Assembly (NCBI RefSeq): GCF_011683955.1
Contig: NZ_JAAQPI010000002.1
Location: 448,157-512,156 of the forward strand
Direction: 5' to 3'
Source: Pseudomaricurvus alkylphenolicus
GTDB lineage: Bacteria > Pseudomonadota > Gammaproteobacteria > Pseudomonadales > Cellvibrionaceae
Length of the DNA: 64,000 bases
In this document: one piece after another, positions 44,749 through 59,795 of the stretch
Numbering within the stretch: position 1 is the stretch's first letter
Layout of the letters: each line of letters begins with the position of its first letter
Notes under the pieces: generated by a model
The model's database searches: none
Told to the model about the DNA's origin: nothing
What the model saw: only the letters and a program-made list of their open reading frames with translations
Made by a program: the position numbers and the translations under genes

Positions 44749-44786
44749 CCGAAGTATTATTCAAATATTACTGAATATTAATTCGG
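44749..44786. promoter_or_regulatory. Full inverted-repeat operator (site A) upstream of puuB
   Basis: Left arm CCGAAGTATTATTCA (44749-44763) and right arm TGAATATTAATTCGG (44772-44786), eight bases apart. The right arm is the exact reverse complement of CCGAATTAATATTCA at site D. It lies 63-100 bases before the puuB ATG. Probable binding site of the local TetR regulator. The rest of the 294-base gap shows nothing else recognised. Confidence 0.75.
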
Positions 44787-44849
44787 ATAACTTTTGATTC
44801 CCACGCTCGGGAATACCCTTAGCCAGTAGAGATTAACCAGAGGTTCTGC

Positions 44850-46148
44850 ATGACAGCCATTGCCCCCAGTCCACTCAGTCGGCACGTGGACTCCTACTAT
44901 GCCGCCAGCGCCAATGCCCTGCGCGACTTTCCTGCATTAGAGGGGGAAGTCGATGCGGATGTCTGCGTCATCGGGGGAGGCTATACGGGCTTGTCTTCAG
45001 CCCTGCACCTGGCCGAAAGAGGCTACAAGGTGGTGTTGCTGGAGGCCGAGCGAGTAGGCTGGGGGGCTTCTGGCCGTAACGGAGGCCACGTTGGTACGGG
45101 CCAGCGTCTGGATCAGCACTCCCTGGAAGCCAAAGTCGGCCGGGAAAAAGCGCGCATGATGTGGGATCTGAGTCTGGAAGCCGTACAAACGGTAAAAGAT
45201 CTGATCGAGAAACATCAGATTCAATGCGACCTGAAACCCGGTATCTTGCACACAGCCCACAAGGCCAGCCTGCGCGACGAGTACCTGCAGGAGGCTGAGT
45301 TTCTGCAGAAGAATTACGATTACGACGCCATTCGTTTTGTCGATAAGGATGAAGTCCGCCAGCTCGTTGGTTCGGACAACTACCATTGTGGCACCCTGGA
45401 CAGCTTTTCCTGCCATCTGCATCCCCTCAACTTTGCACTGGGTCTGGGCAGAGCCTGTGCCGACGCCGGCGTTCGTATCTTCGAAAACAGCCGGGTTGTG
45501 AATTACAGCGATGGCAGCAACCCCATTGTCACCACAGCCAGAGGCAGAGTGAAGGCCAAATTTGTGGTTCTGGGCTGCAATGGCTACCTGGGCAAACTGG
45601 AGCCGCGCATGGCAGGCAAGATCATGCCCATAAACAATTTTGTGCTTGCCACCGAGCCACTCAGTGATGAACTTTGCCGTGAACTGATCCGGGACGATAC
45701 GGCCGTGGCCGATTCCCTGTTCGTCATCAATTACTGGAAGCTGTCCGGTGATAACCGGTTGTTATTTGGTGGCGGTGAGAATTACACCAGTCGTTTTCCC
45801 AGGGATATGAAGTCTTTCGTGCGCAAATATATGCTGCGGGTTTACCCCCAACTGCAGAATACACGCATTGACTACGCCTGGGGCGGCACACTGGCCATCA
45901 CCCTCAATCGCATGCCGCACTTTGGTCGCCTCAGCGACAATGTGTTTTATGCCCAGGGTTATTCCGGACACGGCGTTCCCACCGCCACAATGGCCGGCAA
46001 GCTATTGGCCGAAGCGGTTGCCGGAACCGCCGAGCGCTTTGACGTGATGGCCGATTACCCCACCCATACCTTTCCTGGCGGCACGCTGCTGCGCTGGCCC
46101 GGGCTGGTGGCGGGCATGCTTTATTACTCACTGAGAGACAAACTCTAG
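44850..46148 (+). CDS. puuB: PuuB/OrdL-type FAD-dependent amine oxidase
   Basis: A 432-residue DAO-family oxidoreductase. The FAD fingerprint CVIGGGYTGLSSALHLAE is at about 39-56, and ERVGWGASGRNGGH is typical of gamma-glutamylputrescine oxidases. PuuB oxidises gamma-glutamyl-putrescine to the aldehyde, releasing ammonia and peroxide. AGAGG precedes the ATG. It is separated from puuA, puuD and puuC-like genes but shares the operator element with them. TonB-receptor gene follows after 80 bases. Confidence 0.85.
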   Translation: MTAIAPSPLSRHVDSYYAASANALRDFPALEGEVDADVCVIGGGYTGLSSALHLAERGYKVVLLEAERVGWGASGRNGGHVGTGQRLDQHSLEAKVGREKARMMWDLSLEAVQTVKDLIEKHQIQCDLKPGILHTAHKASLRDEYLQEAEFLQKNYDYDAIRFVDKDEVRQLVGSDNYHCGTLDSFSCHLHPLNFALGLGRACADAGVRIFENSRVVNYSDGSNPIVTTARGRVKAKFVVLGCNGYLGKLEPRMAGKIMPINNFVLATEPLSDELCRELIRDDTAVADSLFVINYWKLSGDNRLLFGGGENYTSRFPRDMKSFVRKYMLRVYPQLQNTRIDYAWGGTLAITLNRMPHFGRLSDNVFYAQGYSGHGVPTATMAGKLLAEAVAGTAERFDVMADYPTHTFPGGTLLRWPGLVAGMLYYSLRDKL

Positions 46149-46228
46149 ACCCACTACAAGATAACCACAATCTGTTTACAGATGAGAACAAAGAGAACAT
46201 CAACACTACCCTATAGAGGAAGAGAAAG

Positions 46229-48583
46229 ATGAACAAAAGCCGCTGTTTCAGACATCGGGCACTGCCCCTGGCCATTGGCATGACGCTCAGTGCATCCGTC
46301 ATAGCTGAAGAAAACGGTTGGGCTATCGAAGAAGTGATAGTCACTGCACAGAAACGTGAACAGAGCCTGCAGGACGTGCCCATCAGCGTATCCGCCTTTA
46401 GTGGCGAAATGATGAAGAACGCGCAGATGCAGGACGCCAAACAAATCGCCGTCATGACCCCCGGCATGTCCGGTGACAGCAACGACAGCTTTATGGATTC
46501 CATCAACATCCGTGGTATCAGCACTAACGGTTTTGGCATTGGCGCCGAGCCCTCAGTGGGTACCTATCAGAATGGCATCTATCTCGGTCGCACCGGTGGT
46601 GCGGTGACCAGCCTCTATGATATGAACCGTGTTGAAGTGGTCAAAGGGCCGCAGGGTACCCTGTTTGGCCGCAACGCCTCTGCCGGCGCAATCAGCATGC
46701 ATACCCAAGCGCCTGAGCAAGACTTTGGCGGCAGTGTGGAACTGGGCCTTGGCGAAGACGGATATCAGGAATTTGTGGGTGTCCTGAATGTTCCTTTAAC
46801 AGATCAACTGGCCTCGCGCTTTGCTGTGTATAACCGCCAGCAAGACGACTGGATCAAGAACCTGGAAGACGGTGGTCATATCGGTGGGGAAGATGTTTTT
46901 GCCGGACGCGCCAGCTTTAGCTATGAAGGTGACAGTTTCTCCGGCACCTTGGTACTGGAATACGAAGATCGTCTGGTCGCGCCCAGCTATTACCGGGCTT
47001 ACGACGATGGAAGCGGTATTTCCGCAGGACTGGGGCGCCTTGGACTCAATACCATCACTGGTGACAGAGACCAGATTCGCTCCGACATTCCCAGCGACCA
47101 ACTGCGCGATGAAGGGGAAGTCTGGGGTGCCAGCCTTAATCTCGAATTTGAACTCAGCGATCACTACAGTCTGACTTCCATCACCGGTCTGCGTGGTCAC
47201 AATTACACCTATGTCGAAGACTTCGATGGTACCGGCGCGCACCTGTTCAGCTATTTTCAGGAGCAAGAGCAATCCTATTTCAGCCAGGAATTTCGCCTGA
47301 ACTATGACAGTGAGGGAGCGGTCACCTGGTTCCTCGGTGTCTCGACCTACCGTGAGGAAATCGAAGCCCGCTTCGACCAGACTTACGATGAAGATGCAAT
47401 GTGCGAGAGCATATTCGCCGCTTATGCGGGTGACGCTGGTGCACCGGAGGCCGCAGACGAAGTCAGCGATTGCAACAGCTATTATGAATACATCGGCTAC
47501 TCTGATTACGGCCCGGGTATCGGTGTACGCAACGACTCGGTGGACGCCGAGGGCGACTATGAAGGCTGGGGCATCTATGGCGACGCCACCTGGGCCGCAA
47601 CTGATAAGTTAGACGTGACTGTTGGTGCCCGCTATACCGAAGACAGCCGTGACTTTAAAACCAGATTTGGTGGTGCGGATCGCAATTACTTCTGGTACAG
47701 CTTTCCATTCTACAGTTCAGACTTTGTCGAGGGTGACCGCACCTGGGATAACCTTTCCATGCGCCTGGCCCTCAACTACGAAGTCGATGAAAATATGTCA
47801 GCATTTGTGAACCTTTCCAGCGGATACAAAGCCGGTGGGTTTAACACCTTTGACCTGACACTTCCAGAGGGACTGACCGCCGCCGATGTCGACGGTGCTG
47901 ACGCCTCTGAATTTGGTGCCACACTGAGCGAGTTTGACGAGGAAGAAGTTGTCAGCTTTGAAGTGGGCCTGAAATCCATGTGGTGGGATGATCGCCTGCA
48001 GTTTGACGCCAGTTACTACCGCTACCAGTTTGACGGCATGCAGGCCGTCTACGCGATCGGATCGCAAATTCGCCTGGCCAACGCCGGTGATGCCGTGGGT
48101 GAGGGTGTCGAAGTGAGCATGCGGGTTCTGCCCACTGAAAATCTGGACATCTACTGGGGAGTTGCCTGGTCTGATACGGCCCTGGAAGAGCCCAATGATG
48201 TTTTCTGTGAATCCGTAGGTTGCCGCAAGGACGCCCAGTTGCCGGGCTCCGTTGACTTCAGCTCGGCATTGATCGCCACCTACAACCTGCCCCTGGCAAA
48301 CGGTGATGCCTACATCACCCTGGAGAATTTCTACCTCAGTGGCTCACCCGGCTTTGGCGACTTCAGTGGTAGTGGTACCTACGAAACCGAATCGTTCAAT
48401 GAGACCAACCTGCGTATCGGCTATCAAAGTGACGAAAACTGGAGTGCCAGCCTGTGGGTAAACAATCTTACCGATGAATTTAACTACGGCACACCGGTAG
48501 CTGCAGAGGCCAACCTGCCGGCACACCAGATTGGCATGACTGAACCCCGACGCATTGGTATCAATCTCGGCTACCAATTCTGA
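46229..48583 (+). CDS. TonB-dependent outer-membrane receptor
   Basis: A 784-residue receptor: signal peptide (about 1-28), TonB box-like IEEVIVTAQKR, plug domain with LQDVPISVSAF and VEVVKGPQGTLFGRNASAG, then a 22-strand barrel ending in the aromatic GINLGYQF. The SusC-like or FyuA-type substrate cannot be told; no iron-box seen. AGAGGAAGAG precedes the ATG. Being 80 bases behind puuB without a terminator, it is probably co-transcribed and therefore in the amine regulon. Confidence 0.92.
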   Translation: MNKSRCFRHRALPLAIGMTLSASVIAEENGWAIEEVIVTAQKREQSLQDVPISVSAFSGEMMKNAQMQDAKQIAVMTPGMSGDSNDSFMDSINIRGISTNGFGIGAEPSVGTYQNGIYLGRTGGAVTSLYDMNRVEVVKGPQGTLFGRNASAGAISMHTQAPEQDFGGSVELGLGEDGYQEFVGVLNVPLTDQLASRFAVYNRQQDDWIKNLEDGGHIGGEDVFAGRASFSYEGDSFSGTLVLEYEDRLVAPSYYRAYDDGSGISAGLGRLGLNTITGDRDQIRSDIPSDQLRDEGEVWGASLNLEFELSDHYSLTSITGLRGHNYTYVEDFDGTGAHLFSYFQEQEQSYFSQEFRLNYDSEGAVTWFLGVSTYREEIEARFDQTYDEDAMCESIFAAYAGDAGAPEAADEVSDCNSYYEYIGYSDYGPGIGVRNDSVDAEGDYEGWGIYGDATWAATDKLDVTVGARYTEDSRDFKTRFGGADRNYFWYSFPFYSSDFVEGDRTWDNLSMRLALNYEVDENMSAFVNLSSGYKAGGFNTFDLTLPEGLTAADVDGADASEFGATLSEFDEEEVVSFEVGLKSMWWDDRLQFDASYYRYQFDGMQAVYAIGSQIRLANAGDAVGEGVEVSMRVLPTENLDIYWGVAWSDTALEEPNDVFCESVGCRKDAQLPGSVDFSSALIATYNLPLANGDAYITLENFYLSGSPGFGDFSGSGTYETESFNETNLRIGYQSDENWSASLWVNNLTDEFNYGTPVAAEANLPAHQIGMTEPRRIGINLGYQF

Positions 48584-48609
48584 TTTTGTCTCCTCTGTGA
48601 CGCTTCCAC

Positions 48610-48636
48610 GGGCCGGTAACCACCGGCCCTTTTTTT
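48610..48636 (+). terminator. Intrinsic terminator behind the TonB receptor
   Basis: GGGCCGGT-AACC-ACCGGCCC followed by seven T. It ends the puuB-receptor transcript 27 bases after the stop, so the sulfotransferase gene behind it likely has its own promoter or read-through only. Confidence 0.9.
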
Positions 48637-48701
48637 CTCCCCCGTGCGGTGCAATACTTTCGGGTAGATATTGCGAATCCAATGTTGTGAATCACGAGCC
48701 T

Positions 48702-50675
48702 ATGAATCCTCGCGAGATATTCTTTCAATCGCTCGAACACTTTAAACAGGGCGAATTCGACGCCGCACAGAACGGCTGTCAAAAGCTGCTGGCTATCAAC
48801 CCCAATGACGTCAATGGTTTGCGTCTGTCGGCGCAAATTCACCACCAGAAGGGAAATCTTGATCTCGCCCGCAAGAGCTTCGAAAAAGTCCTGAGTTTGG
48901 CCCCCGACTACGCTCACGCACAGGCCGATCTGGGCAAACTGCTGTATCAGCAGCAAGAACTGAACGACGCCAGAGAACACCTGCAGCAAGCCCTTAAGCT
49001 GGACAAGCGCCTTCATAGTGCTCGACGAGTACTCTACGATGTGTTGGAGGGCCTCGGTGATGAAGAGGCTGCCGCTGCGCTGGCCCCGCAACTGCAGCAG
49101 CGTGAAGACATCAAAGCCTCTGTGGAGGAAGCATTAGAGCTCTACCGACAAAAACAGTTTGACGCCATGGAAGCCCGCTGTCAGGACATTTTGAAGGCAG
49201 ACCCAGGTAATCTGGTGGTGATCTCCCTGCTGGCTGACTATACCGTTTCCGAACATAAAGCCATCCGTGCGGAAAAGCTCTTCCGAACCATTCTGCAACG
49301 TATTCCCGAAAGCCACCGCGCCTGGAATGGATTGGCACGGGCGCAGATTTTCCAGGACAGACCCGCAGAGGCTTTAAAAAGTCTGCAGAGAAGCCGGGAA
49401 ATCAATCGCAACATTGGGGAAACCCAGGTCCTGACCGCCAATGCCTACAGCAAACAGTACGACTACGACAAAGCCATTGACATACTGCAGCAAGCGCTGG
49501 CTGCCCAACCGGAATTTACCCAGGCCATGTCACAACTCGGCTTTGCGCTAAAAACCATTGGCCAACAGCAGCAGGCCATCGAAATATTGCGCCGCTGTAT
49601 TAATACCGATGAAAGCTATGGCGAAGCCTACTGGTCACTGTCTGATATGAAGACATTCTCCTTCTCAGACACCGAAGTGGGAACCATGAAGACGATGTTG
49701 AGCTCCACCACACTAAGCGATAAAAACCGGGTGTATTTTGGATATGCCCTGGGGAAAGCATTGGAACATCGACAACAATATAGCCAGGCGTTTGAGGCAT
49801 ACGACAGTGCCAATCGCTTACAGAAGAAATACGTTGGCTATAGTGCAGAAAAGAACCGACTGGAAACCGATGAACTGATCGAGTGTTTCACCGAAGACTT
49901 TTATCAGCAAAACCGGCTGACCGATGACTCAGGCGTAACGCCCATTTTCGTGGTCAGCCTGCCCCGTTCCGGCTCGACACTACAGGAACAGATTCTTGCC
50001 AGCCATTCACAGGTGGAAGGCACCCAGGAACTGTCTTATATACCTCGACTTGCCCGCAGTTTACATCTTGGCAATCAAGCCATGGCTTCTCTGCCATTCC
50101 CCCGTGGTTTGACGGAACTCACCCGACAACAGCTTCAACATATTCGTGATCAATATCTGCAAAAGGCCGCTTTTCATCGTAAGCAGGGTCTGTCCTATTT
50201 TATCGACAAATTGCCCAACAACTTTTTCTATGCCGGCTTGATTGCACTGTGCTTTCCCAATGCCAAAATCATAAACGCCCGACGGCACCCGATGGACTCC
50301 TGTCTGGGTTGCTTTAAACAGCTTTGGGCAATGGGACAGGAGTTCACTTACAGCCAGGCAGATCTGGCTCGCTACTATGTGGATTACGACAGACTGGTGA
50401 AGCACTGGCACCAAGTCATGCCCGGGCGAATTCTGGATGTCCAGTATGAGTCAGTAGTAGAAGATCTGGAAACCAATGTCCGCAAAGTACTGGATTTCTG
50501 TGAATTGCCGTTTGAAGAAGATTGCCTCACTTTCCACAAGACCGAAAGGGCTGTTGTCACTTCAAGTTCTGAGCAGGTACGCAAACCCATTTACCGATCG
50601 GCTTTGGCCTATTGGAAGAACTTCGAAACGGAGCTTGCTCCCATGAGAGAAATATTGGGTCGGTTGGCTGACTAA
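48702..50675 (+). CDS. TPR-repeat sulfotransferase
   Basis: A 657-residue protein: about ten TPR units (residues ~1-340), then a PAPS-dependent sulfotransferase domain (~410-657) with 5'-phosphosulfate loop LPRSGSTLQEQIL around R422 and 3'-phosphate motif RRHPMDSCLGCFKQ around 527-540. It resembles bacterial relatives of tyrosylprotein sulfotransferase, often found next to TonB receptors in marine gammaproteobacteria. No signal peptide is clear from the ATG at 48702, so it is probably cytoplasmic. The frame also opens at 48555, inside the receptor. Substrate unknown. Confidence 0.85.
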   Translation: MNPREIFFQSLEHFKQGEFDAAQNGCQKLLAINPNDVNGLRLSAQIHHQKGNLDLARKSFEKVLSLAPDYAHAQADLGKLLYQQQELNDAREHLQQALKLDKRLHSARRVLYDVLEGLGDEEAAAALAPQLQQREDIKASVEEALELYRQKQFDAMEARCQDILKADPGNLVVISLLADYTVSEHKAIRAEKLFRTILQRIPESHRAWNGLARAQIFQDRPAEALKSLQRSREINRNIGETQVLTANAYSKQYDYDKAIDILQQALAAQPEFTQAMSQLGFALKTIGQQQQAIEILRRCINTDESYGEAYWSLSDMKTFSFSDTEVGTMKTMLSSTTLSDKNRVYFGYALGKALEHRQQYSQAFEAYDSANRLQKKYVGYSAEKNRLETDELIECFTEDFYQQNRLTDDSGVTPIFVVSLPRSGSTLQEQILASHSQVEGTQELSYIPRLARSLHLGNQAMASLPFPRGLTELTRQQLQHIRDQYLQKAAFHRKQGLSYFIDKLPNNFFYAGLIALCFPNAKIINARRHPMDSCLGCFKQLWAMGQEFTYSQADLARYYVDYDRLVKHWHQVMPGRILDVQYESVVEDLETNVRKVLDFCELPFEEDCLTFHKTERAVVTSSSEQVRKPIYRSALAYWKNFETELAPMREILGRLAD

Positions 50676-50832
50676 TCTGTAGTTTGGGGCTTTCGGTGTA
50701 TCGGAAGCTCGCTTGAATTTTGACTTTGGTTAACCCCGCTTCGTGCCATAAGCTGCCGTTGGAATTTGGTTTTTTGATAGAGGTTTTTCTTTGCGGAGAG
50801 GGCGAAAGGGGCTGCTGGTTCTGTGCCACAAC

Positions 50833-50975
50833 GGGCGGCTGGGTGTCCGTTTGAGGCGCGCGCGGCCGGCCCTCCTGCCTCCCTTCAGTCCCCAGGGAGC
50901 CAAGCAAAAAACGCTTGTCTCCCTGACTCCTTCAGCGTCCGCTTAAATGCGCCTCAAACGAACACCCAGCCACCC
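50833..50975. repeat. Nested long inverted repeat
   Basis: Outer arms 50833-50859 and 50949-50975 (core GGCTGGGTGTCCGTTTGAGG and its complement, two mismatches in 27). Inside, CAGGGAGCCAAGC (50893-50905) and GCTTGTCTCCCTG (50913-50925) pair with one mismatch around AAAAAAC. The DNA or RNA could fold into a two-tier cruciform/hairpin. No ORF. It lies in the 701-base gene-free gap between the sulfotransferase and cupin genes. Confidence 0.85.
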
Positions 50976-51098
50976 TTTAGACCGAGGTAGGCCTACTTTT
51001 TCGTTCTAAACGTCGCAGCTTTGAACCGGTAGTATGGAGAAGTATCCGACAATAATAGGTACGGATTTCTCGATAACGCATTTATTTCTCAGGATTAA

Positions 51099-51265
51099 GG
51101 CCCGATGGGGTGCCCCTTTCCAGAACACTCAGGGCGCGCTTAGCCTCTGCGCGTTGGCCCGATGTTTTCGCGGAGAGTTTTGAGCGTTTCCCAGCGAGTC
51201 TCGGAGCGATCGGGCCAACGCGCAGAGGCTGCGACCCGTTCTGGAAAGGGGCACCCCATCGGGCC
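51099..51265. repeat. Second long inverted repeat (two perfect stem blocks)
   Basis: Outer arms 51099-51126 and 51238-51265 are perfect 28-base complements (GGCCCGATGGGGTGCCCC... ); inner arms 51142-51163 and 51209-51230 are perfect 22-base complements (AGCCTCTGCGCGTTGGCCCG...). Between stem blocks are unequal bulges, and the central ~45 bases (TTTTCGCGGAGAG...) form the loop. GC-rich unlike the flanks. Could be a MITE-like element or a structured RNA; not a simple terminator. Confidence 0.9.
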
Positions 51266-51376
51266 GGGGCGTGGCACACAACTCATTCAAATACCACTCG
51301 AACTAGCGCACGAAAGGGCTGCCTGCCAACTTCCGGTTATGGCACCCAGCGGACGATCTAATGCTACATAAAGCCC

Positions 51377-51745
51377 CTATTTTTCGTAGATAACGTAGAG
51401 CTTTTTGGCCGATTCAATCGTTGTCCATGTGCCCTGGAAACCAGCCGGAATCGCAAACATATCTCCCTGATTGAGTTCTTTGGTATTGCCCTCGTTATCC
51501 GTTACAACAACGCGGCCTTGCAACAAGAAGCAAACCTCTTCCTCGGTATAGTTCACGCGATGGGTGCCAGGCTCACCCTGCCATATGCCCGCACCAAAGG
51601 TTTGATCCTTACTGTCGTAACAGTGCCAAAGCGTTTGAGCCGGATTACCCTCGACAATCTTCTCGGCATCGGGAAGATAAGACTCTGAGTCAACCCGATC
51701 ACAACCAATCATCGAAATCTTATCGACACTCATTCCATTACTCAT
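51377..51745 (-). CDS. Cupin domain protein of the amine operon
   Basis: A 122-residue single cupin barrel (AGIWQGEPGTHRVNYTEEEVCFLLQG, then GDMFAIPAGFQGTW), similar to EutQ-like or DUF861 cupins. The first cupin motif has only one His, so metal binding may be altered. ATG at 51745 overlaps the aminotransferase stop by 8 bases, so it is the last gene of puuD-puuA-spuC-cupin. Role unknown; perhaps aldehyde or amine handling. Confidence 0.85.
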   Translation of the reverse strand: MSNGMSVDKISMIGCDRVDSESYLPDAEKIVEGNPAQTLWHCYDSKDQTFGAGIWQGEPGTHRVNYTEEEVCFLLQGRVVVTDNEGNTKELNQGDMFAIPAGFQGTWTTIESAKKLYVIYEK

Positions 51746-53117
51746 CGTCTTCCAGCGCTCCTTTTTCAATAGCAGCCAAAGTATCGTCCAAAGACTTCTT
51801 GGCTTTTTCAATCAGCTCATCAATTTCATCTCTGGTGATCACCAACGGAGGTGAAATCAGCATGATGTCGCCCGTAGCCCGCATAATCAGACCGTTGGCG
51901 GTACAGAAATCACGACACAGTCCACCGGCTTTACCATCAGGAGCCAAACGCTCACGAGTGAACTTGTCCTTCACCAACTCCAATGCACAAACCAAACCCA
52001 CACCGCGGGTTTCTCCCACAATCGGATGATCGGCAAGTTCCTGCCAGCGCTGTTGTAGATAAGGCCCGGTATCCTCTGCAACCCGTTCGACCAGATTTTC
52101 TTCCTGTATGATCTCCAGATTCTTCAGTGCCACTGCAGCCGCAGCAGGGTGACCGGAATAGGTGTAGCCGTGATTAATCTCACCACCATCGGTCTTCAAT
52201 ACCTCTGCCACGCGATCGCTAAACAGAACACCACCGATTGGAAGATAGCCGGAGGATAACCCTTTGGCGATAGGCATGAAATCGGGCTTGATTCCAAAGG
52301 TTTCAGAACCGAACCAATTACCGGTACGGCCAAATCCACAAATCACTTCATCAGCAATTAACAAAATACCGTACTTGTCACAGATACGCTGAATTTCCGG
52401 CCAGTAGCTAGACGGCGGAATAATAACGCCGCCAGCCCCCTGCAGGGGTTCACCGATAAATGCAGCCACTTTATCCACACCCAGTTCCAGAATTTTCTCT
52501 TCCAGCTGGCGGGCGCGCTGCAAACCAAACTCCTCCGGCGACAGATCGTCACCCTCTGCGAACCAGTAGGGCTGATCGATATGCTCGATACCGGGAATTG
52601 GCAGACCACCTTGCTTATGCATATAGCCCATGCCACCCAGGCTTGCACCTGCAACCGTCGAGCCGTGATAAGCATTCTTACGGCTGATAATGACGGATTT
52701 CTCCGGCTTGCCCTGCACCGCCCAGTAATGTCTTACCAAACGCAACACCGTGTCATTGGACTCGGAGCCGGAACCGGTAAAAAACACATTGTTGACATGC
52801 TCAGGGGCGACTTCCGCCAACTTCCGGGCAAGTAAAATTGCCGGAGGAGTCGTGCATTGAAAAAAGCTGTTGTAGTAAGGCAGCTCCAGCATCTGCTGGT
52901 GAGCGACATCGGCCAACTCCTTACGGCCATAACCAACGGCCACACACCAGAGTCCTGCCATGCCGTCGAGCATCTTGTGCCCTTCGCTATCCCACAAATA
53001 AACGCCGTCCGCACGACTGATAATTCGTGTGCCGCGCTGATTTAAATCTCCCTGGTCGGTAAACGGGTGCAAGTGGTGTTGACGATCAAGTTTTTGTAAT
53101 TGCTCTGTATTAGTCAT
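51738..53117 (-). CDS. Class III aminotransferase, SpuC-like
   Basis: A 459-residue PLP-dependent omega-aminotransferase. PLP lysine K285 lies in IAKGLSSGY, with LLIADEVICGFGRTG before it and the N-terminal GLWCVAVGYGR. It is closest in pattern to putrescine/polyamine:pyruvate aminotransferases (SpuC). AGAGAGG precedes the ATG at 53117; an in-frame ATG 51 bases upstream is less likely. It follows puuA by 77 bases. Together with PuuA it gives two possible routes from a diamine. Confidence 0.85.
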   Translation of the reverse strand: MTNTEQLQKLDRQHHLHPFTDQGDLNQRGTRIISRADGVYLWDSEGHKMLDGMAGLWCVAVGYGRKELADVAHQQMLELPYYNSFFQCTTPPAILLARKLAEVAPEHVNNVFFTGSGSESNDTVLRLVRHYWAVQGKPEKSVIISRKNAYHGSTVAGASLGGMGYMHKQGGLPIPGIEHIDQPYWFAEGDDLSPEEFGLQRARQLEEKILELGVDKVAAFIGEPLQGAGGVIIPPSSYWPEIQRICDKYGILLIADEVICGFGRTGNWFGSETFGIKPDFMPIAKGLSSGYLPIGGVLFSDRVAEVLKTDGGEINHGYTYSGHPAAAAVALKNLEIIQEENLVERVAEDTGPYLQQRWQELADHPIVGETRGVGLVCALELVKDKFTRERLAPDGKAGGLCRDFCTANGLIMRATGDIMLISPPLVITRDEIDELIEKAKKSLDDTLAAIEKGALEDDE

Positions 53118-53194
53118 GGTAATACCTCTCTGTGGCCCCGTCGGAAACGGGGCCATAAATGTATTCAAATTTTAAATGGATTGGGTAAACGGGG

Positions 53195-54529
53195 TCAGAC
53201 GTTAAGCAACAGATGTTCACGCTCCCAGGAGCTGATCACCTTGTTAAACTCTTCGTATTCCGACGCCTTAACAGCAACATAGGCATCGACAAAAGTGTTG
53301 CCCAGAATGTCGCGCAGTTCCTGACATTCGTCGAGAAGGCGAGCCGCGTGCTCCAGGGTACGAGCGACTTCGATATCCTCATCGTAGGAGTTGCCTTCAC
53401 AGGGTGCACTGGGTTCAATCTGCAACTTCATACCCAGAAATCCCGAGGCCAGAGTCGCCGCAAACGCAAGATAAGGATTCACATCAACGCCAGCAAAGCG
53501 GTTTTCTACGCGTTTCGCCTGTGGTGAACTGTCCGGCACACGAATGCCGGTGGTGCGATTGTCGTATCCCCAATTGAGATTAATCGGTGCCGCGATATCC
53601 CGGGTAAAACGGCGATAGGAATTCACATTGGGCGCGTAGAAAGGCATCGCGTGTTTAGTGAATTTCTGCAGGCCACCGATATAATGTCGAAACAGCTGGT
53701 TCTCATTACCGGCGCCATCGACAAAGATATTTTTGCCGGTATTGGCATCCACAATGCTCTGGTGGATGTGCATGGAACTGCCTGGTTCTTTCTCCATCGG
53801 CTTTGCCATAAAGGTGGCAAACACACCGTGTTGCATGGCTGTTTCGCGCAAGGTGCGCTTGAAGGTAAACACCTGATCAGCCAGGTTCAACGCATCACCG
53901 TGAAGAAAATTCAGCTCCATTTGCGCGGCACCGGTCTCATCAATCAGGGAGTCAACATCAAGTCCCATCGCCTCACAGTAATCGAACATGTCTTCAATCA
54001 ACGGATCGAATTCGTTGATGGCGTCAATGGTATAGGAGCGACGCATGACTTCAGCGCGCCCGGATCGTCCAGCCGGAGCCCTGAGTTCAGAATCGGGATC
54101 AGTGGCCTGTTGCACCAGATAGAACTCCACTTCCGGAGCAACAACAGGTTTCCAACCTTCCTGCTCATACAGCGATAAAACCCGCTTTAAGACACCGCGA
54201 CTGGACAGTGGATGCAACTCGCCGTCGCGGGTTACACAGTCGTGAATGATCTGAGCCGTCGGGTCTTTGGCCCAGGGGACCAAGCGCATAGCGCCGGGAT
54301 CAGGGCGCAGAAACATGTCACTGTCCGTGACCCCCAGGATATCGTCGTATTCGTCCGGGTAACCGCCAGTGACCGACTGCAGGAGGATGCTCTCAGGCAG
54401 CCGTGTCTCTTCTTTGTAGAATTTGTCCGCCGGAACAAACTTGCCCCGGGCATTGCCGGTCATGTCCGGCACCAGACATTCAACTTCGGTAATGTTGTGC
54501 TCGTTGAGCCAGTGATTAATGGTATCCAT
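53195..54529 (-). CDS. puuA: Gamma-glutamylpolyamine synthetase PuuA (glutamine-synthetase family)
   Basis: A 444-residue GS-type ligase joining glutamate to an amine with ATP. GS signatures are present: EVEFYLVQ, MELNFLHGDAL, PGSSMHIHQS, NVNSYRRFTR and RVPDSSPQAKRVENRFAGVDVNPYL region. The N-terminus (ITEVECLVPDMTGNARGK) fits PuuA/SpuI rather than GlnA. AAAGG lies seven bases upstream of the ATG. It follows puuD by 124 bases. Confidence 0.88.
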   Translation of the reverse strand: MDTINHWLNEHNITEVECLVPDMTGNARGKFVPADKFYKEETRLPESILLQSVTGGYPDEYDDILGVTDSDMFLRPDPGAMRLVPWAKDPTAQIIHDCVTRDGELHPLSSRGVLKRVLSLYEQEGWKPVVAPEVEFYLVQQATDPDSELRAPAGRSGRAEVMRRSYTIDAINEFDPLIEDMFDYCEAMGLDVDSLIDETGAAQMELNFLHGDALNLADQVFTFKRTLRETAMQHGVFATFMAKPMEKEPGSSMHIHQSIVDANTGKNIFVDGAGNENQLFRHYIGGLQKFTKHAMPFYAPNVNSYRRFTRDIAAPINLNWGYDNRTTGIRVPDSSPQAKRVENRFAGVDVNPYLAFAATLASGFLGMKLQIEPSAPCEGNSYDEDIEVARTLEHAARLLDECQELRDILGNTFVDAYVAVKASEYEEFNKVISSWEREHLLLNV

Positions 54530-54652
54530 AGTATGCCTTTGCTATCGCAGTGCGATCGTGCGGTGGCTCCAATGGGATGCCAGGCCGCGTTAATGTATTG
54601 TCATCGATAGGGTACTTCTCAGAGTAGTTGAGTTACGCCGCTGGGTTAAACC

Positions 54653-55402
54653 TCAGCGGCGACGCTTCTCGCAGGCGGATTTGAAGGCTCCGAAGATGCT
54701 CTGGTAGAAGGGGTTGTTCATCACTTTCCACTCCGGGTGCCACTGGACGCCCAGAATAAAACGCTCGCCGAGATCAGCTCGAAACGCCTCAATCAGTCCG
54801 TCTTCTGCACGGGCTTCGACCGCCAAACCGGGCGCCAGCTTGTGGATTCCCTGTTGGTGGATACTGTTCACCTCAGCGCGATCTGCGTTATTAAGCGTTT
54901 GCAGCAAACCGCCGCTTTCCAAGGTTACCGGGTGCGCGGGTCCATACTGCACCTCCAGTGGTTGTTCCGGGTCTTCACGATGGTCCATCATTCCTGGCAG
55001 TTCCTGTACACGCTGATGCAAGGTGCCGCCCATGGCAACGTTGATCTCCTGGAAACCCCGACAGATTCCCAGCAGCGGTACATCCGCTTCCAGTGCCATA
55101 CCAATCAGAGGCAAAGTTGTGGCGTCACGTGCCGGGTCGTGCATTGGCTCTTTGGCCACTTCACCATTGTAGTGATGGGGTTCTATGTTGCTGGGAGAGC
55201 CGGTTAACAGCAAACCGTCGATATCGGCCAGAAAGGCTTCCAGCAGATGCCTGTCACCCATAGCCGGGATAAGCACAGGAATGGCTTCCATAGCTTCAGT
55301 GACAGCTCTTATGTATTTGTCACCAATGGCATGAAAGGGATGAGGGCCAATCATTTTGCAATCGGCAACCAGTCCAATTTTCAACGGTTTGCAGTCTGTC
55401 AT
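54653..55402 (-). CDS. puuD: Gamma-glutamyl-gamma-aminobutyrate hydrolase PuuD
   Basis: A 249-residue class I glutamine amidotransferase-like hydrolase that frees GABA from gamma-glutamyl-GABA. Nucleophile C114 is in LGICRGFQEINVAMGG, with the His/Glu pair in VQWHPEWK. Start MTDCKPLKIG at 55402 is preferred; an in-frame ATG at 55429 is the alternative. It is the first gene of the minus-strand amine operon and carries operator site B about 70 bases upstream. Confidence 0.9.
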   Translation of the reverse strand: MTDCKPLKIGLVADCKMIGPHPFHAIGDKYIRAVTEAMEAIPVLIPAMGDRHLLEAFLADIDGLLLTGSPSNIEPHHYNGEVAKEPMHDPARDATTLPLIGMALEADVPLLGICRGFQEINVAMGGTLHQRVQELPGMMDHREDPEQPLEVQYGPAHPVTLESGGLLQTLNNADRAEVNSIHQQGIHKLAPGLAVEARAEDGLIEAFRADLGERFILGVQWHPEWKVMNNPFYQSIFGAFKSACEKRRR

Positions 55403-55470
55403 ATTTTCGTTTACCTCAAGTCTATTCATTCTGGCGCAAGTGCTTTAGCCCATTATTCCGCACCAATAAA

Positions 55471-55485
55471 CGAATATTAATTCGG
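55471..55485 (-). promoter_or_regulatory. Operator site B upstream of puuD
   Basis: On the minus strand CCGAATTAATATTCG, 14 of 15 identical to site D. It lies 69-83 bases before the puuD start. The 405-base puuD-tetR gap holds this site and site C; a lone TTAATTCGG half is at 55562-55570. Confidence 0.7.
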
Positions 55486-55588
55486 TTTTATAATCCTGAT
55501 GGCCAATATCGACCATGTTATTAAGTGTCTATAATTCAGTGTAAACCATAGAGTTAAGCTGTTAATTCGGGAGTATCCCGACAACAAA

Positions 55589-55603
55589 CCGAATTATTAT
55601 TCA
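55589..55603 (+). promoter_or_regulatory. Operator site C upstream of tetR
   Basis: CCGAATTATTATTCA, one base different from site D, followed after six bases by TGAATTG, a degraded second arm. It lies 204-219 bases before the preferred tetR ATG, so it may control tetR itself. Confidence 0.65.
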
Positions 55604-55807
55604 GTTTATTGAATTGCTGCTGATAAATCAACCGTCACCCCTGAACGTCAGGGCAAATAGGTTCCCATTGCGCCGCACCAAAAAGCTGTGAGCGAGAACC
55701 ATTTGTCGGTACTATTAGCGCCTTTGAAACCCAACTACCAACCCCAGTCACCCGGCCGGGTTGCGAGAGAACACCCACAGATGCCCAGAGAGCGCCAAGA
55801 AAAGCGC

Positions 55808-56458
55808 ATGAATGCGCTAAATCCCCGCCGTCAGCCGATTCAGCAACGCGCCCGTGAGCGCACGCAGCAGATTCTCGATATCACGGCCCGTCTCCTCGAA
55901 GAAGTGGGCATTGACGATCTGACCACCATTTTGATCGCCAAGGAGTTGGGCATCTCCGTGGGATCTCTGTATCACTACTTCCCCAATAAACACGCCATCA
56001 TGTATGCCCTCGGTGAGCGCTGGCTGGAAGAAATGACTATCGCCATGAACGACATGGAGTCCTTTGCGGTGGAAACCATGACTCCGAACCAGTTTGTGGA
56101 CAAAGCCATTAACCGGATGCTGGCAGTTTACAAAGCCCAGCGAGCGGTGCTGCCGCTGACCCAGGCGTTGTGGGCCATTCCCGAGCTGCGCCGTCTCGAT
56201 GAAGAGCATGACTATCTGGTGATCTCCAAACTGGCTAATATCTTCGAGCGCCTGCAGCTTAAAGGCTCACGAAACGAGCTGGAGCGCGTCGGGCGGATCT
56301 ACCTTGAAACCACCCATGCCGTATTGCTGTCAGTGGTTTCGCAGAAAACCGTTCGCTCCAAGCGCAGTCTTGAAGACCTTAAAACGATGATCGCCGCTCT
56401 GGTGCAAAGCCATGCTCCGGGCGATAGTCAGGCCTCGAAGGAATCCGACCAGGCCTGA
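55808..56458 (+). CDS. TetR-family regulator of the amine cluster
   Basis: A 216-residue regulator from ATG 55808. N-terminal helix-turn-helix TTILIAKELGISVGSLYHYFPNKHAIMYAL is the TetR signature; the C-terminal ~150 residues form the ligand-binding part. The frame opens with GTG at 55688 and another ATG at 55781, so the exact start is open; 55808 gives the usual short lead-in to the HTH. Placed between the puuD operon and the aldehyde dehydrogenase gene, it is the best candidate for binding sites A-D. Confidence 0.85.
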   Translation: MNALNPRRQPIQQRARERTQQILDITARLLEEVGIDDLTTILIAKELGISVGSLYHYFPNKHAIMYALGERWLEEMTIAMNDMESFAVETMTPNQFVDKAINRMLAVYKAQRAVLPLTQALWAIPELRRLDEEHDYLVISKLANIFERLQLKGSRNELERVGRIYLETTHAVLLSVVSQKTVRSKRSLEDLKTMIAALVQSHAPGDSQASKESDQA

Positions 56459-56491
56459 TGTTCAACCCAAAAGTGCCTTATGGCGACTCTG

Positions 56492-57919
56492 TCACCCCAT
56501 AGGTTGACTAATGGCTTTGGTCTCCAGGAAATCATCAAAGCCATATTCGCCCCACTCGCGACCATTTCCTGACTGCTTGTAGCCACCAAACGGTGAGCTG
56601 TAGATGTGGGGGGCACCATTCACCCGAACCATACCCGCCCGCAAACGACGGGTGACGCGGGCGACGCGCTCTTCGTCATCGCTCTGCACGTAGGCCGCCA
56701 GTCCATAAGGGGTATCGTTGGCGATCTCGATGGCCTCTTCTTCGGTCTGGTAGGGAATCATGGCCAGAACCGGGCCAAACACCTCTTCGCGGGCGATGTT
56801 CATCTTGTTATTCACGTCGGCGAACACCGTGGGTTTGGTAAAGTAACCGGTTTCCAGTCCTTCCGGCTTGCCAGGACCGCCGGCCGCCACGCGGGCACCT
56901 TCCTCGATGGCTGCCTGTATCATTCCCTGAACTTTTTCAAAATGGGGACGGCTAACCAGAGGACCAATGTGATCACCATGCTGGTCTGACTTGCCAACTT
57001 TGACTTCGTTGGCTGCTCGGGCGGCGATTTCCACGGCTTCTTCATAACGATCGGCAGGCACCAGCATACGGGTGGGGGCGTTGCAGGACTGGCCAACATT
57101 GTCCATGCAGTGGACCACACCACGGGTGACCGCTTTTTCCAGATCGGTATCGTCAAAGATGATGTTGGGAGATTTGCCTCCCAGTTCCAGTGCAACGCGT
57201 TTTACGGTATCTGCGGCAGCGCGGGAGATAGCGGTACCTGCGCGGGTAGAGCCGGTAAAGGACACCATATCGATATCGCGGTGGGAGGAGATGGCCGCCC
57301 CCACACCCGGACCGTCACCATGAATCATATTGTAAACACCGGCAGGAAAGCCGGCTTGATGAATCATATCGCTGAACACGTGCGCGGACAGCGGTGCAAT
57401 TTCACTGGGCTTGAGAACCATAGTACAACCGGTCGCCAGGGCGGGGGCGACCTTGCAGGCGATCTGATTGATTGGCCAGTTCCAGGGGGTGATAAAACCG
57501 CAAACCCCCACGGGCTCTTTTACAATCCTGGCATTGGCGCTCTGGTGTTCAAACTCAAAACTCTTTAGAGCTTTCAGCGCTGTGGCGATATGTCCGCGAC
57601 CACAGTCGGCCTGGTCCGCCGCGGCGAAGTCCACAGGTGCTCCCATTTCGACACTGATGGCCTCAGCCATTTCATCGTAGCGCTCCTTGTAAACCGCCAG
57701 CAGCTTTTCCAGCAGTTCAATGCGCTCTTCGCGGCTGCTAAAGCCGAAGCTGTCAAAGGCTCTGCGTGCCGCTGCCACCGCCTTGTCCACATCCTCTGCC
57801 GTGCCCAGGGTAATGACGGCTACCTGCTCTTCGGTGGAAGGGTTTTCCACTGGGAAATCATTGGCTTGCATCGGATCAACCCACTGGCCATCGATATAGA
57901 ATTGTCTGCAATCTTTCAT
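56492..57919 (-). CDS. NAD(P)-dependent aldehyde dehydrogenase, probable PuuC role
   Basis: A 475-residue ALDH-superfamily enzyme. Catalytic C279 (NVGQSCNAPTRM) and general base E245 (LELGGKSPN) are both present, with the coenzyme region TPWNWPINQIACKVAPAL. It could oxidise gamma-glutamyl-aminobutyraldehyde or a free aminoaldehyde, by context. AGGAG precedes the ATG at 57919; the frame opens earlier at 58012. It lies 128 bases behind the MFS gene and tail-to-tail with tetR. Confidence 0.88.
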   Translation of the reverse strand: MKDCRQFYIDGQWVDPMQANDFPVENPSTEEQVAVITLGTAEDVDKAVAAARRAFDSFGFSSREERIELLEKLLAVYKERYDEMAEAISVEMGAPVDFAAADQADCGRGHIATALKALKSFEFEHQSANARIVKEPVGVCGFITPWNWPINQIACKVAPALATGCTMVLKPSEIAPLSAHVFSDMIHQAGFPAGVYNMIHGDGPGVGAAISSHRDIDMVSFTGSTRAGTAISRAAADTVKRVALELGGKSPNIIFDDTDLEKAVTRGVVHCMDNVGQSCNAPTRMLVPADRYEEAVEIAARAANEVKVGKSDQHGDHIGPLVSRPHFEKVQGMIQAAIEEGARVAAGGPGKPEGLETGYFTKPTVFADVNNKMNIAREEVFGPVLAMIPYQTEEEAIEIANDTPYGLAAYVQSDDEERVARVTRRLRAGMVRVNGAPHIYSSPFGGYKQSGNGREWGEYGFDDFLETKAISQPMG

Positions 57920-58047
57920 GTCTATCTCCTTTGGGTCTGTAGCGGCTACAGTCGGGTACTCCGCCACCCGGTTGGTGTTGTTTGCCCTAGCAGGGCCAGT
58001 GTTCAGAAACATTCAGTGTATCGAACCCATTTGTCAGTTCGAATAAC

Positions 58048-59433
58048 CTAAAAGGGTATAGCAGTTTTGGTCTTCTCCCGCCCTATGGGCAACGGCTGAT
58101 TTCGATAAATCTCGCTGCTGTTGAGCTGGGGAAAGCGTCTCCAAATCAACCACAGGGACACCAGAGTGACCAGCAGCATGAGGGCGCCAATCAGGCCCAT
58201 TGCCAGATCAAGGCCGCCGCCCTGGTATCCCACTTGATTTTTGATGGCCCCGCCTATGCCCACCGCCAGACCAATGCCAATGCTGTCCATCAAGCCCGTG
58301 CCAGTTGCCGTCGCTCCTTCCTTGCCTGGTTCGGTCGCCAGCATAGCGGCGGTTGCCACAGCGTTGTAGGCCAAGCCCATACCAAATCCCGCCATGGCCC
58401 AGGCCGGATAGATGGTCCAGGTGGGCGCCACAGGCAAGAGCAGCAAAGCCATGAGCCCAATGGCCAAGGCAAACAAGCCAAGCCCCCACAGTAAAGAGTT
58501 CCTGTGAGTCATATTGATTTTCGAGGACGACTGCAGAAACGATGCTGCCACCCAGGTAAAGGCTGCGCCGGTAAAGGCCAGCCCCGTCGCCGTGACACCC
58601 ATACCCCGTGCATCGATCAGGTAGAGAGGCAGAAATGACTCAAGACCGTAGAACACGAAGAATATGCCTCCATGCAAAATCAATGAGAGCGGCAGGGTGG
58701 TTCGCATGCGCCACCATTGTTGCGGCAAGGCCCGATTGAGTGGACGCCACAACAGCAAAGCGCTGATGGGTACCAGCAGCCACAATGGGCTTAATGGGGT
58801 AGAAGTCACCAATACCATCAACATACAACAGCCACCGATGCGCAGGGCGTTCCACAAGGCATTGAAATTGGGCGATTGCGGTGTGCGTTCGAGTCCGCGC
58901 AGGGGCTTCATCAACAGCAGCGCCAATACTCCCAGCAGTGGCATCTGCAGCCAGAACAAGCCTCGCCAGCTCCAGTGCTCCACCAGCAGACCACCCACGG
59001 CGGGCGCCAGCAAAGACGGCAGTAACCAGGCACTATCCAGCCAGGCTACCATTCGGGATTTGTGCTCCTCAGGACACAGCCGGTTAGTCACGCTATAGGC
59101 AACCGTAAAGGCGATGCCACCACCAAATCCCTGCAGTGCCCTGGCGATGACAAACACCCCCATGGAGTCGGATACCACGGCCAAGCCGAGGCCCAAAGCG
59201 AACGCCAGCAAGGCCACGCGAAACACGCCCGAGGGACCGTGTCGATCGAGCCAGTCTCCTGACCAGACTGTGGAGACCAGCGCCGCCAGTACGTAGGCTG
59301 CCAGGGTCACACCATACCATTCGCCACCTCCCAGATCTTTGCTGATGGTGGGAAGCGCAATGACCAGGGCCATTTCATCAAAGGCGTGTAGCGTTACCGC
59401 CAGTAAGAGTCCAATTTGCAGTGATCGATTCAT
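58048..59433 (-). CDS. MFS transporter
   Basis: A 461-residue inner-membrane permease with about 12-14 hydrophobic helices. The motif GDWLDRHGP at the 2-3 loop and GFGGGIAFTVAYSV after TM5 fit drug/proton antiporter-type MFS. In this cluster it may import or export the amine or a related compound; substrate not determinable. Operator site D is 346 bases upstream. Confidence 0.88.
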   Translation of the reverse strand: MNRSLQIGLLLAVTLHAFDEMALVIALPTISKDLGGGEWYGVTLAAYVLAALVSTVWSGDWLDRHGPSGVFRVALLAFALGLGLAVVSDSMGVFVIARALQGFGGGIAFTVAYSVTNRLCPEEHKSRMVAWLDSAWLLPSLLAPAVGGLLVEHWSWRGLFWLQMPLLGVLALLLMKPLRGLERTPQSPNFNALWNALRIGGCCMLMVLVTSTPLSPLWLLVPISALLLWRPLNRALPQQWWRMRTTLPLSLILHGGIFFVFYGLESFLPLYLIDARGMGVTATGLAFTGAAFTWVAASFLQSSSKINMTHRNSLLWGLGLFALAIGLMALLLLPVAPTWTIYPAWAMAGFGMGLAYNAVATAAMLATEPGKEGATATGTGLMDSIGIGLAVGIGGAIKNQVGYQGGGLDLAMGLIGALMLLVTLVSLWLIWRRFPQLNSSEIYRNQPLPIGREKTKTAIPF

Positions 59434-59626
59434 GACAGATCACCATTGTGTATGCATCGCCACCGGGAATGCCGGTTGAACGTATTCATGAGAATCCTCT
59501 AAAGCCAGTCACTGGATTTCAGCCAGCTACGCCTTTATAAGAACCCCCGTGCCACCCGGGTCTGAAACACAAGCAGGAAAACGGCAGACACGGAAGCCTG
59601 TCAACAGGTAGGGAGAAACAGACTCG

Positions 59627-59716
59627 TCAGCGAGGATCGGCATCCTCGCCACGGAAATAGTCCTGCCAGACAGCTGCGGTGCTGACCCAGTCCGACCATG
59701 CAATGTAATAATCCAT
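59627..59716 (-). CDS. Possible 29-residue ORF upstream of the MFS gene
   Basis: ATG 59716 to TGA 59627, rich in aromatic and acidic residues (begins MDYYIAWSDW, ends GEDADPR). It starts 65 bases downstream of operator site D on the same strand. No ribosome binding site and no known family recognised. Apart from this and site D, the 461-base MFS-kinase gap shows nothing I can name. Confidence 0.25.
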   Translation of the reverse strand: MDYYIAWSDWVSTAAVWQDYFRGEDADPR

Positions 59717-59780
59717 AGCGAGAACAGAAGAGAAATGGTGAAGTTGGCTCTACTTTAACTCAGAAAAAAAAGCCTTACAA

Positions 59781-59795
59781 CCGAATTAATATTCA
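59781..59795 (+). promoter_or_regulatory. Operator site D upstream of the MFS gene
   Basis: CCGAATTAATATTCA, the exact form of the shared element, followed by ATAAATATC. Only one strong arm is seen. It is far from the MFS ATG (346 bases), so a long leader or the small ORF may lie between. Confidence 0.65.

Follow-up and report, generated by a model that had tools for sequence, protein, structure and literature searches.

The closest described systems, as presented in the accessible parts of the articles cited here, include three in which genes for gamma-glutamylation of amines are regulated. In Escherichia coli, the PuuR regulon (puuAP and puuDRCBE) consists of a local repressor acting on a gamma-glutamylation amine pathway (PMC9397018). 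PuuR is the E. coli homolog of the XRE-cupin protein PauR, which, in Pseudomonas, represses many dispersed gamma-glutamylation genes via a palindromic site, has this site upstream from its own gene, and is subject to derepression by putrescine and cadaverine (PMC7901475). In Streptomyces, EpuRI and EpuRII bind to the promoters of the gamma-glutamylpolyamine or ethanolamide synthetase genes and to their own promoters (PMC8998196). Several TetR regulons are listed in PMC5343134, none of those in the accessible part of that article being devoted to polyamines, and our search of the open-access literature (RegPrecise being outside its scope) retrieved no TetR-type protein regulating gamma-glutamylation. 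Marine dissolved organic matter is believed to include polyamines (PMC8437039), which makes their regulator ecologically interesting.

The locus reported here combines a pathway of this type with a TetR-family protein and a recurrent 15-bp motif. The motif is most likely the target of this neighbouring TetR-type repressor, which would replace PuuR, the unrelated regulator of the same kind of pathway in E. coli.

A Puu-type gene cluster and its candidate operators

The window, i.e. the whole 64-kb stretch of DNA that was analysed, contains a Puu gamma-glutamylation set: homologs of PuuA, PuuB, PuuC, and PuuD are present together in the cluster according to BLASTP comparison with the E. coli proteins (Table 1). 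The initial annotation assigned the motif to positions upstream from the puuB, puuD, tetR, and MFS genes of one pathway, and the gene identities and positions agree with this assignment. The NCBIfam equivalog cut-offs for the putrescine pathway were not reached (198 versus 650 for GGputSyn, 211.7 versus 266 for PuuD, and 307.9 versus 850 for PuuC) and, for puuB, none of the best 25 of 51 NCBIfam families reached its cut-off. The amine substrate is thus not fixed by sequence, and polyamines are the presumed one. The TPR-sulfotransferase gene adjoins the TonB receptor gene, an arrangement kept in the genus (three loci, L224 to L226). Cupin matches come after tetR in several Oceanospirillales loci.

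Table 1. Genes of the cluster and candidate operators (window coordinates; mismatches are relative to the 15-mer of the initial annotation).
Feature	Coordinates	Strand	Remarks
Orphan membrane protein, 285 aa	43698..44555	-	Divergent from puuB across site A; predicted regulon member
Operator A, left arm, CCGAAGTATTATTCA	44749-44763	+	2 mismatches; matrix score 24.0
Operator A, right arm, CCGAATTAATATTCA	44772-44786	-	0 mismatches; matrix score 21.7
puuB-like FAD amine oxidase (DAO)	44850..46148	+	PF01266; 44% identity to E. coli PuuB
TonB-dependent receptor	46229..48583	+	PF00593/PF07715; 80 bp after puuB
TPR-sulfotransferase	48555..50675	+	PF13469 plus TPR; membership uncertain
EutQ-like cupin	51377..51811	-	PF05899; longest ORF, shorter start likely
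Class III aminotransferase	51738..53168	-	PF00202; NCBIfam NF005682, 801 bits (cut-off 510); longest ORF
Glutamine-synthetase-like ligase (GS, puuA-like)	53195..54529	-	PF00120; 32% identity to E. coli PuuA
puuD-like gamma-glutamyl hydrolase (peptidase C26)	54653..55429	-	PF07722; 43% identity to E. coli PuuD
Operator B	55471-55485	-	1 mismatch; matrix score 20.9
Operator C, CCGAATTATTATTCA	55589-55603	+	1 mismatch; matrix score 27.1; puuD/tetR divergent region
TetR-family regulator	55781..56458	+	PF00440, PF17918; start 55781 or 55808
Aldehyde dehydrogenase (puuC-like)	56492..58012	-	PF00171; 35% identity to E. coli PuuC; downstream of MFS gene
MFS transporter (DHA2-like)	58048..59433	-	PF07690; best NCBIfam match TIGR00711, below cut-off
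Operator D	59781-59795	+	0 mismatches; matrix score 21.7

A search of the window with the 15-mer, tolerating up to three mismatches, gave exactly five matches, each with two mismatches at most. This result bears out both the five positions assigned to the motif and its variants in the initial annotation and its remark that no other copy was noticed in the window. At the same threshold, shuffled windows contained 0.99 matches on average and 4 at most, and five matches were reached in 0 of 100 shuffles. The annotation had counted four intergenic copies, which is correct for the number of places (A to D) and too low for the number of 15-mers, since site A holds two of them. It had also described site A as a complete inverted repeat; the repeat is complete and imperfect, its two inverted 15-mers (23 bp start to start, 8-bp spacer) agreeing at 13 of 15 positions. 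Each 15-mer by itself forms an imperfect dyad, GAAT-N4-ATTC. Judging from sequence, the putative operator is a TetR-type dyad with CCGAAT-N4-ATTCGG as its fullest form, sometimes doubled 23 bp apart. The dyads of the window mostly end in ATTCA rather than ATTCGG.

Two of the dyads, B and C, provide a palindromic candidate operator adjoining tetR in the region that separates this gene from the divergent puuD. Site B is located 41 bp upstream from the start of puuD and overlaps a weak -35-like hexamer. Site D is much farther out, 347 bp upstream from the start of the MFS gene, and lies directly downstream from a promoter-like sequence. Sites A, B, and D each adjoin or overlap promoter-like sequences, which are weak consensus matches (1 to 2 found per region versus 0.4 to 0.7 expected). 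In this placement a bound repressor would obstruct the promoter, which faintly suggests such a role.

Scanning of the complete genome (8,876,682 bases in 70 contigs) showed that the copies of the motif with at most one mismatch, four in number, are all inside the 15-kb cluster. Eleven copies have two mismatches, one of them being the left arm of site A at 44749. Among the ten located outside of the window, eight lie within coding sequences and were rejected as members of the regulon. The remaining two are L009, which lies beside a paralog of TetR, and L012, which lies near a gene start and was also rejected, its matrix score (see below) being only 4.5. The scan thus revealed no spread of copies at unrelated genes, and the reading of the motif as the mark of a regulon is left standing. 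An intergenic site of the same genome, CCGAACAATTATTCA (L264, G000:C11:436977-436991; score 17.9), is located between two unassigned ORFs and may be a further target.

Conservation of the site and co-occurrence with TetR

TetR orthologs were detected in 57 of 144 family genomes, including the genome of the window. Additional relatives were retrieved from a named genome collection that overlaps with the family set (102 relatives, 80 loci kept), including loci from Aestuariicella, Microbulbifer, Pseudoteredinibacter, Oceanospirillum, Amphritea, Neptuniibacter, Marinobacterium, and Marinomonas. In these marine gammaproteobacteria, the TetR orthologs adjoin divergent GS and puuB genes. The breadth of conservation was taken from the named loci because a class-wide sample of 369 genomes searched at E 1e-45 yielded the TetR ortholog for no genome other than that of the window.

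Promoter counts were based on the 67 of the 80 loci that have a divergent GS/puuB pair, the other 13 being left out. With up to two mismatches, the 15-mer of the initial annotation, fixed before any relative was examined, occurs in 34 of the 67 GS/puuB promoters; with up to three, it occurs in 50. For 100 permuted versions of this motif, the corresponding numbers of matched loci were 0.02 on average (maximum of 1) and 0.78 on average (maximum of 5). A consensus of the relatives, CCGAATTATTATTCA, which was picked after inspecting their loci and is identical to site C, was found with up to one, two, and three mismatches in 32, 48, and 62 of the 67 promoters, respectively; 200 permuted consensus motifs matched 0.07 loci on average and 2 at most when two mismatches were tolerated. 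A matrix derived from the 48 loci matched with up to two mismatches gave 65 of the 67 promoters a score beyond the 99th percentile of shuffled promoters; of the 19 promoters outside the training set, 17 were among them. Applied to the window, which was also outside the training set, the matrix returned exactly the five sites of the initial annotation with scores of at least 8, plus the mirror of site C. This recovery is not fully independent since likeness to the consensus, and hence to site C, had served to choose the training sites.

The same dyad emerged from a search that was blind to the motif. Among perfect 4-base dyads, GAAT-N4-ATTC ranked first with 54 of the 67 promoters, as compared to 14 for the best unrelated dyads. 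In the 42 loci outside the Microbulbifer set, the nested dyad CGAA-N6-TTCG led with 37 loci, followed by GAAT-N4-ATTC (29 loci) and CCGA-N8-TCGG (21 loci). A further inverted copy, offset by +23 bp as in site A, was present in 16 of 65 loci. A strict dyad scan of the 1.5-kb flanks of tetR in 29 relatives revealed no convincing sites, a result that is misleading because the sites are located at puuB/GS, mostly 2 to 5 kb from tetR.

The site was also found where tetR is not close by. In four genomes (G117 to G120), tetR is on another contig or far off, yet the site is present in the puuB/GS promoter; two of the assemblies (G118 and G119) are fragmented. G121 also has the site at puuB/GS while tetR is distant (Pseudoteredinibacter-type genomes). 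Twenty regions were picked around sites distant from tetR, 14 in TetR-positive and 6 in TetR-negative genomes. In the former, 11 of the 14 sites are at amine-pathway or membrane-protein genes, namely puuB/GS (4), an aminotransferase plus an aldehyde dehydrogenase (3), an aldehyde dehydrogenase (2), a second puuB-like gene (1), and the membrane protein (1), and 3 are not. In the latter, none of the 6 sites is at such genes. In three Microbulbifer-type loci (L182, L187, and L188), which are distant from tetR, a site is located upstream from paired aminotransferase and aldehyde dehydrogenase genes, and this pair perhaps carries out a downstream step of amine breakdown.

Presence of the site parallels that of TetR. 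With a site scored as present for at most one mismatch or a matrix score of at least 8, 53 of the 57 TetR-positive family genomes, including that of the window, have it at the promoter of puuB or at the head of the operon, as compared to 0 of the 7 TetR-negative genomes that keep puuB (Fisher p 5e-7, a value that overstates independence since the genomes are related). These counts include two genomes in which the site heads an operon that includes puuB (G008 and G009) and one in which puuB is cut by a contig end (G119). The four TetR-positive genomes without a clear puuB site are G072, G094, G108, and G109, one of which has a weak site with a score of 10. Few independent events are represented since the seven TetR-negative and the four exceptional genomes all belong to one genus. 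Seven of these 11 Microbulbifer-type genomes without a clear puuB site also lack tetR, and 10 of the 11 lack the orphan membrane protein; regulatory decay is possible.

Predicted additional targets: an orphan membrane protein and a TonB receptor

Across site A from puuB lies a divergent gene encoding a membrane protein, a predicted target that the initial annotation had not counted. In all three same-genus genomes with TetR (L224 to L226), a single site with a score of at least 8 is located between this gene and puuB. The protein has no Pfam or NCBIfam family; its structure model (pLDDT 84) shows a small domain in addition to six long helices and found no PDB match at E 0.001 or better. It occurs in 53 of the 144 family genomes, 52 of which are TetR-positive, and is absent from five TetR-positive genomes. 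Thirty of the 54 matches to the protein were inspected as loci, and 21 of these loci have a site upstream from the gene: four loci of this genus, in which the site is shared with puuB, and 17 Microbulbifer loci. The Microbulbifer copies are unlinked from puuB and have a site of their own in 17 of 17 cases, with the dyad located 120 to 176 bp upstream from the start of the match. In the nine loci devoid of an own site, the gene is a few kilobases or less from puuB or GS. The regulon is therefore predicted to be wider than first reported and to include the orphan membrane protein.

The TonB receptor probably also belongs to the regulon. In loci with the order puuB-tonB-tetR, a site with up to two mismatches is present in the gap between puuB and tonB in 16 of 23 cases. 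The TonB receptor encoded between puuB and tetR in a Microbulbifer locus (L104) has the receptor of the window as its best match in the window's genome (437 bits, the next match scoring 404). A bolder proposal, which we regard as rather unlikely, is that the TonB receptor and the six-helix membrane protein, under the control of an amine-responsive TetR, form a new acquisition system that would import polyamines or polyamine-containing compounds for gamma-glutamylation and replace PuuP-type permeases.

The candidate regulator and its place among known systems

The protein encoded in the cluster has a TetR_N helix-turn-helix (HTH) domain (PF00440, 47.6 bits for a cut-off of 24) and a TetR_C_15 domain (PF17918, 41.8 bits for a cut-off of 26.8). 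Its structure model is all-helical (pLDDT 89) and matches TetR structures in Foldseek. The family search thus gave TetR and not the XRE-cupin type of PuuR and PauR. Searching the genome with E. coli PuuR revealed no convincing ortholog and five weak matches. Their identity is 24 to 28% across most of the protein length or, where the alignment is restricted to 63 HTH residues, 51%; the best match, limited to the HTH, adjoins an ORF that, judged by eye, resembles a ketosynthase. The E. coli puu region contains no counterpart of the GAAT-N4-ATTC dyad. In light of the weak PuuR matches and of the lack of such a dyad in E. coli puu, the motif was rejected as a site for a PuuR of the E. coli type. 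The proposal of a Puu-type regulon operating without PuuR is supported, the genome being devoid of a convincing PuuR ortholog.

With a probability that we place at close to 0.9, the 15-mers are the operators of the adjacent TetR-family protein, which would repress the amine-breakdown units and be released by an amine or a gamma-glutamyl intermediate. One TetR dimer would sit on each dyad, and site A would accommodate two dimers, 23 bp apart. Bound TetR would shut the promoters of puuB-tonB together with the divergent membrane-protein gene (site A), of the puuD-GS-aminotransferase-cupin unit, of its own gene, and of the unit formed by the MFS and aldehyde dehydrogenase genes. If the operons are as gene spacing suggests, every unit of the pathway has one of the four sites (A to D) at its head. 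Binding of the amine or gamma-glutamyl intermediate would then release TetR.

The initial annotation attributed the sites to the local TetR protein, a pairing backed by promoter conservation, the blind search, the unlinked sites, and the lack of a site at puuB in TetR-negative genomes. Alternatively, the local TetR could be a bystander, the sites being bound by another regulator, either a paralogous TetR (G000:C11:192186-192845, 35% identity) or an XRE-cupin protein resembling PuuR, for which the five matches mentioned above are the candidates. The paralog gives this explanation some substance because a nearly identical motif, CCGAATAATTATTCA, is located between its gene and a cupin gene, and cross-binding is possible since the paralog adjoins its own copy of the motif in the same genome. 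Matches of the paralog type (33 to 42% identity) were detected at E 1e-20 in only 6 of the 144 family genomes, as opposed to 53 of 57 for the site at puuB. This lower-scoring class does not explain the conservation, and the PuuR candidates have the shortcomings already stated. Binding by another regulator is consequently quite improbable. The region of the paralog (G000:C11:191751-192845; L009, L061, and L227) also has a TonB receptor and an EutQ-like cupin nearby. Its content suggests another amine module equipped with a related operator, and a wider TetR subfamily may share this type of operator.

The local TetR might also act at these sites as an activator or as a dual regulator, a role for which the 347 bp between site D and its gene could speak; the doubled 23-bp layout would fit either role. 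Most characterised TetR-family proteins are repressors, and the blocking positions of the weak promoter-like sequences at A, B, and D lean slightly in the same direction; activation or dual regulation is quite improbable. Finally, the copies could be non-functional and owed to chance or to likeness to AT-rich promoters, given the AT-rich composition of the motif and the wide genomic scatter of its loose variants (34 matches to a loose pattern versus 20 for the reversed control). This explanation has virtually no chance of being correct: it is refuted by conservation across genera, and neither the window shuffles, nor the genome-wide scan, nor the permuted motifs, which reached 1 to 2 loci at most with up to two mismatches, nor the recovery of the dyad in the blind search speak for it.

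Repression by the local TetR, the preferred reading, would mean that pathways of the same kind are controlled by repressors of two unrelated types, TetR in many marine gammaproteobacteria versus PuuR/PauR. It also yields an operator and a set of targets with which a candidate regulator of amine catabolism can be tested, offers a sequence tag for finding further genes of the pathway, and links amine use to a TonB receptor and to a conserved, uncharacterised membrane protein.

The predicted circuit shares the repressor logic of PuuR with the E. coli Puu system, to which it is also related by its puuB and puuD homologs. It differs by the regulator, PuuR being a homolog of the XRE-cupin protein PauR whereas a TetR protein with a TetR_C_15 domain is present here, and by the transcription units, the transporter, the TonB and membrane-protein members, and the operator, which is unmatched in the puu region. 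PauR and the TetR of the window would have a similar repressor logic and a palindromic site but belong to different protein families. EpuRI and EpuRII, as described in the accessible part of PMC8998196, resemble the predicted behaviour of the TetR of the window in acting at a synthetase promoter and at their own, whereas their lineage differs and that part gives neither their protein family nor such an operator. The solved TetR-family structures that best match the model in Foldseek (2oer, 3mvp, EthR, and AmtR) share its fold and HTH, but display about 20% identity with the protein, and none is described there as a regulator of amine catabolism. A local TetR repressor with dyad operators is of a familiar kind; its predicted combination with a Puu-type pathway appears to be new with respect to the open-access literature searched.
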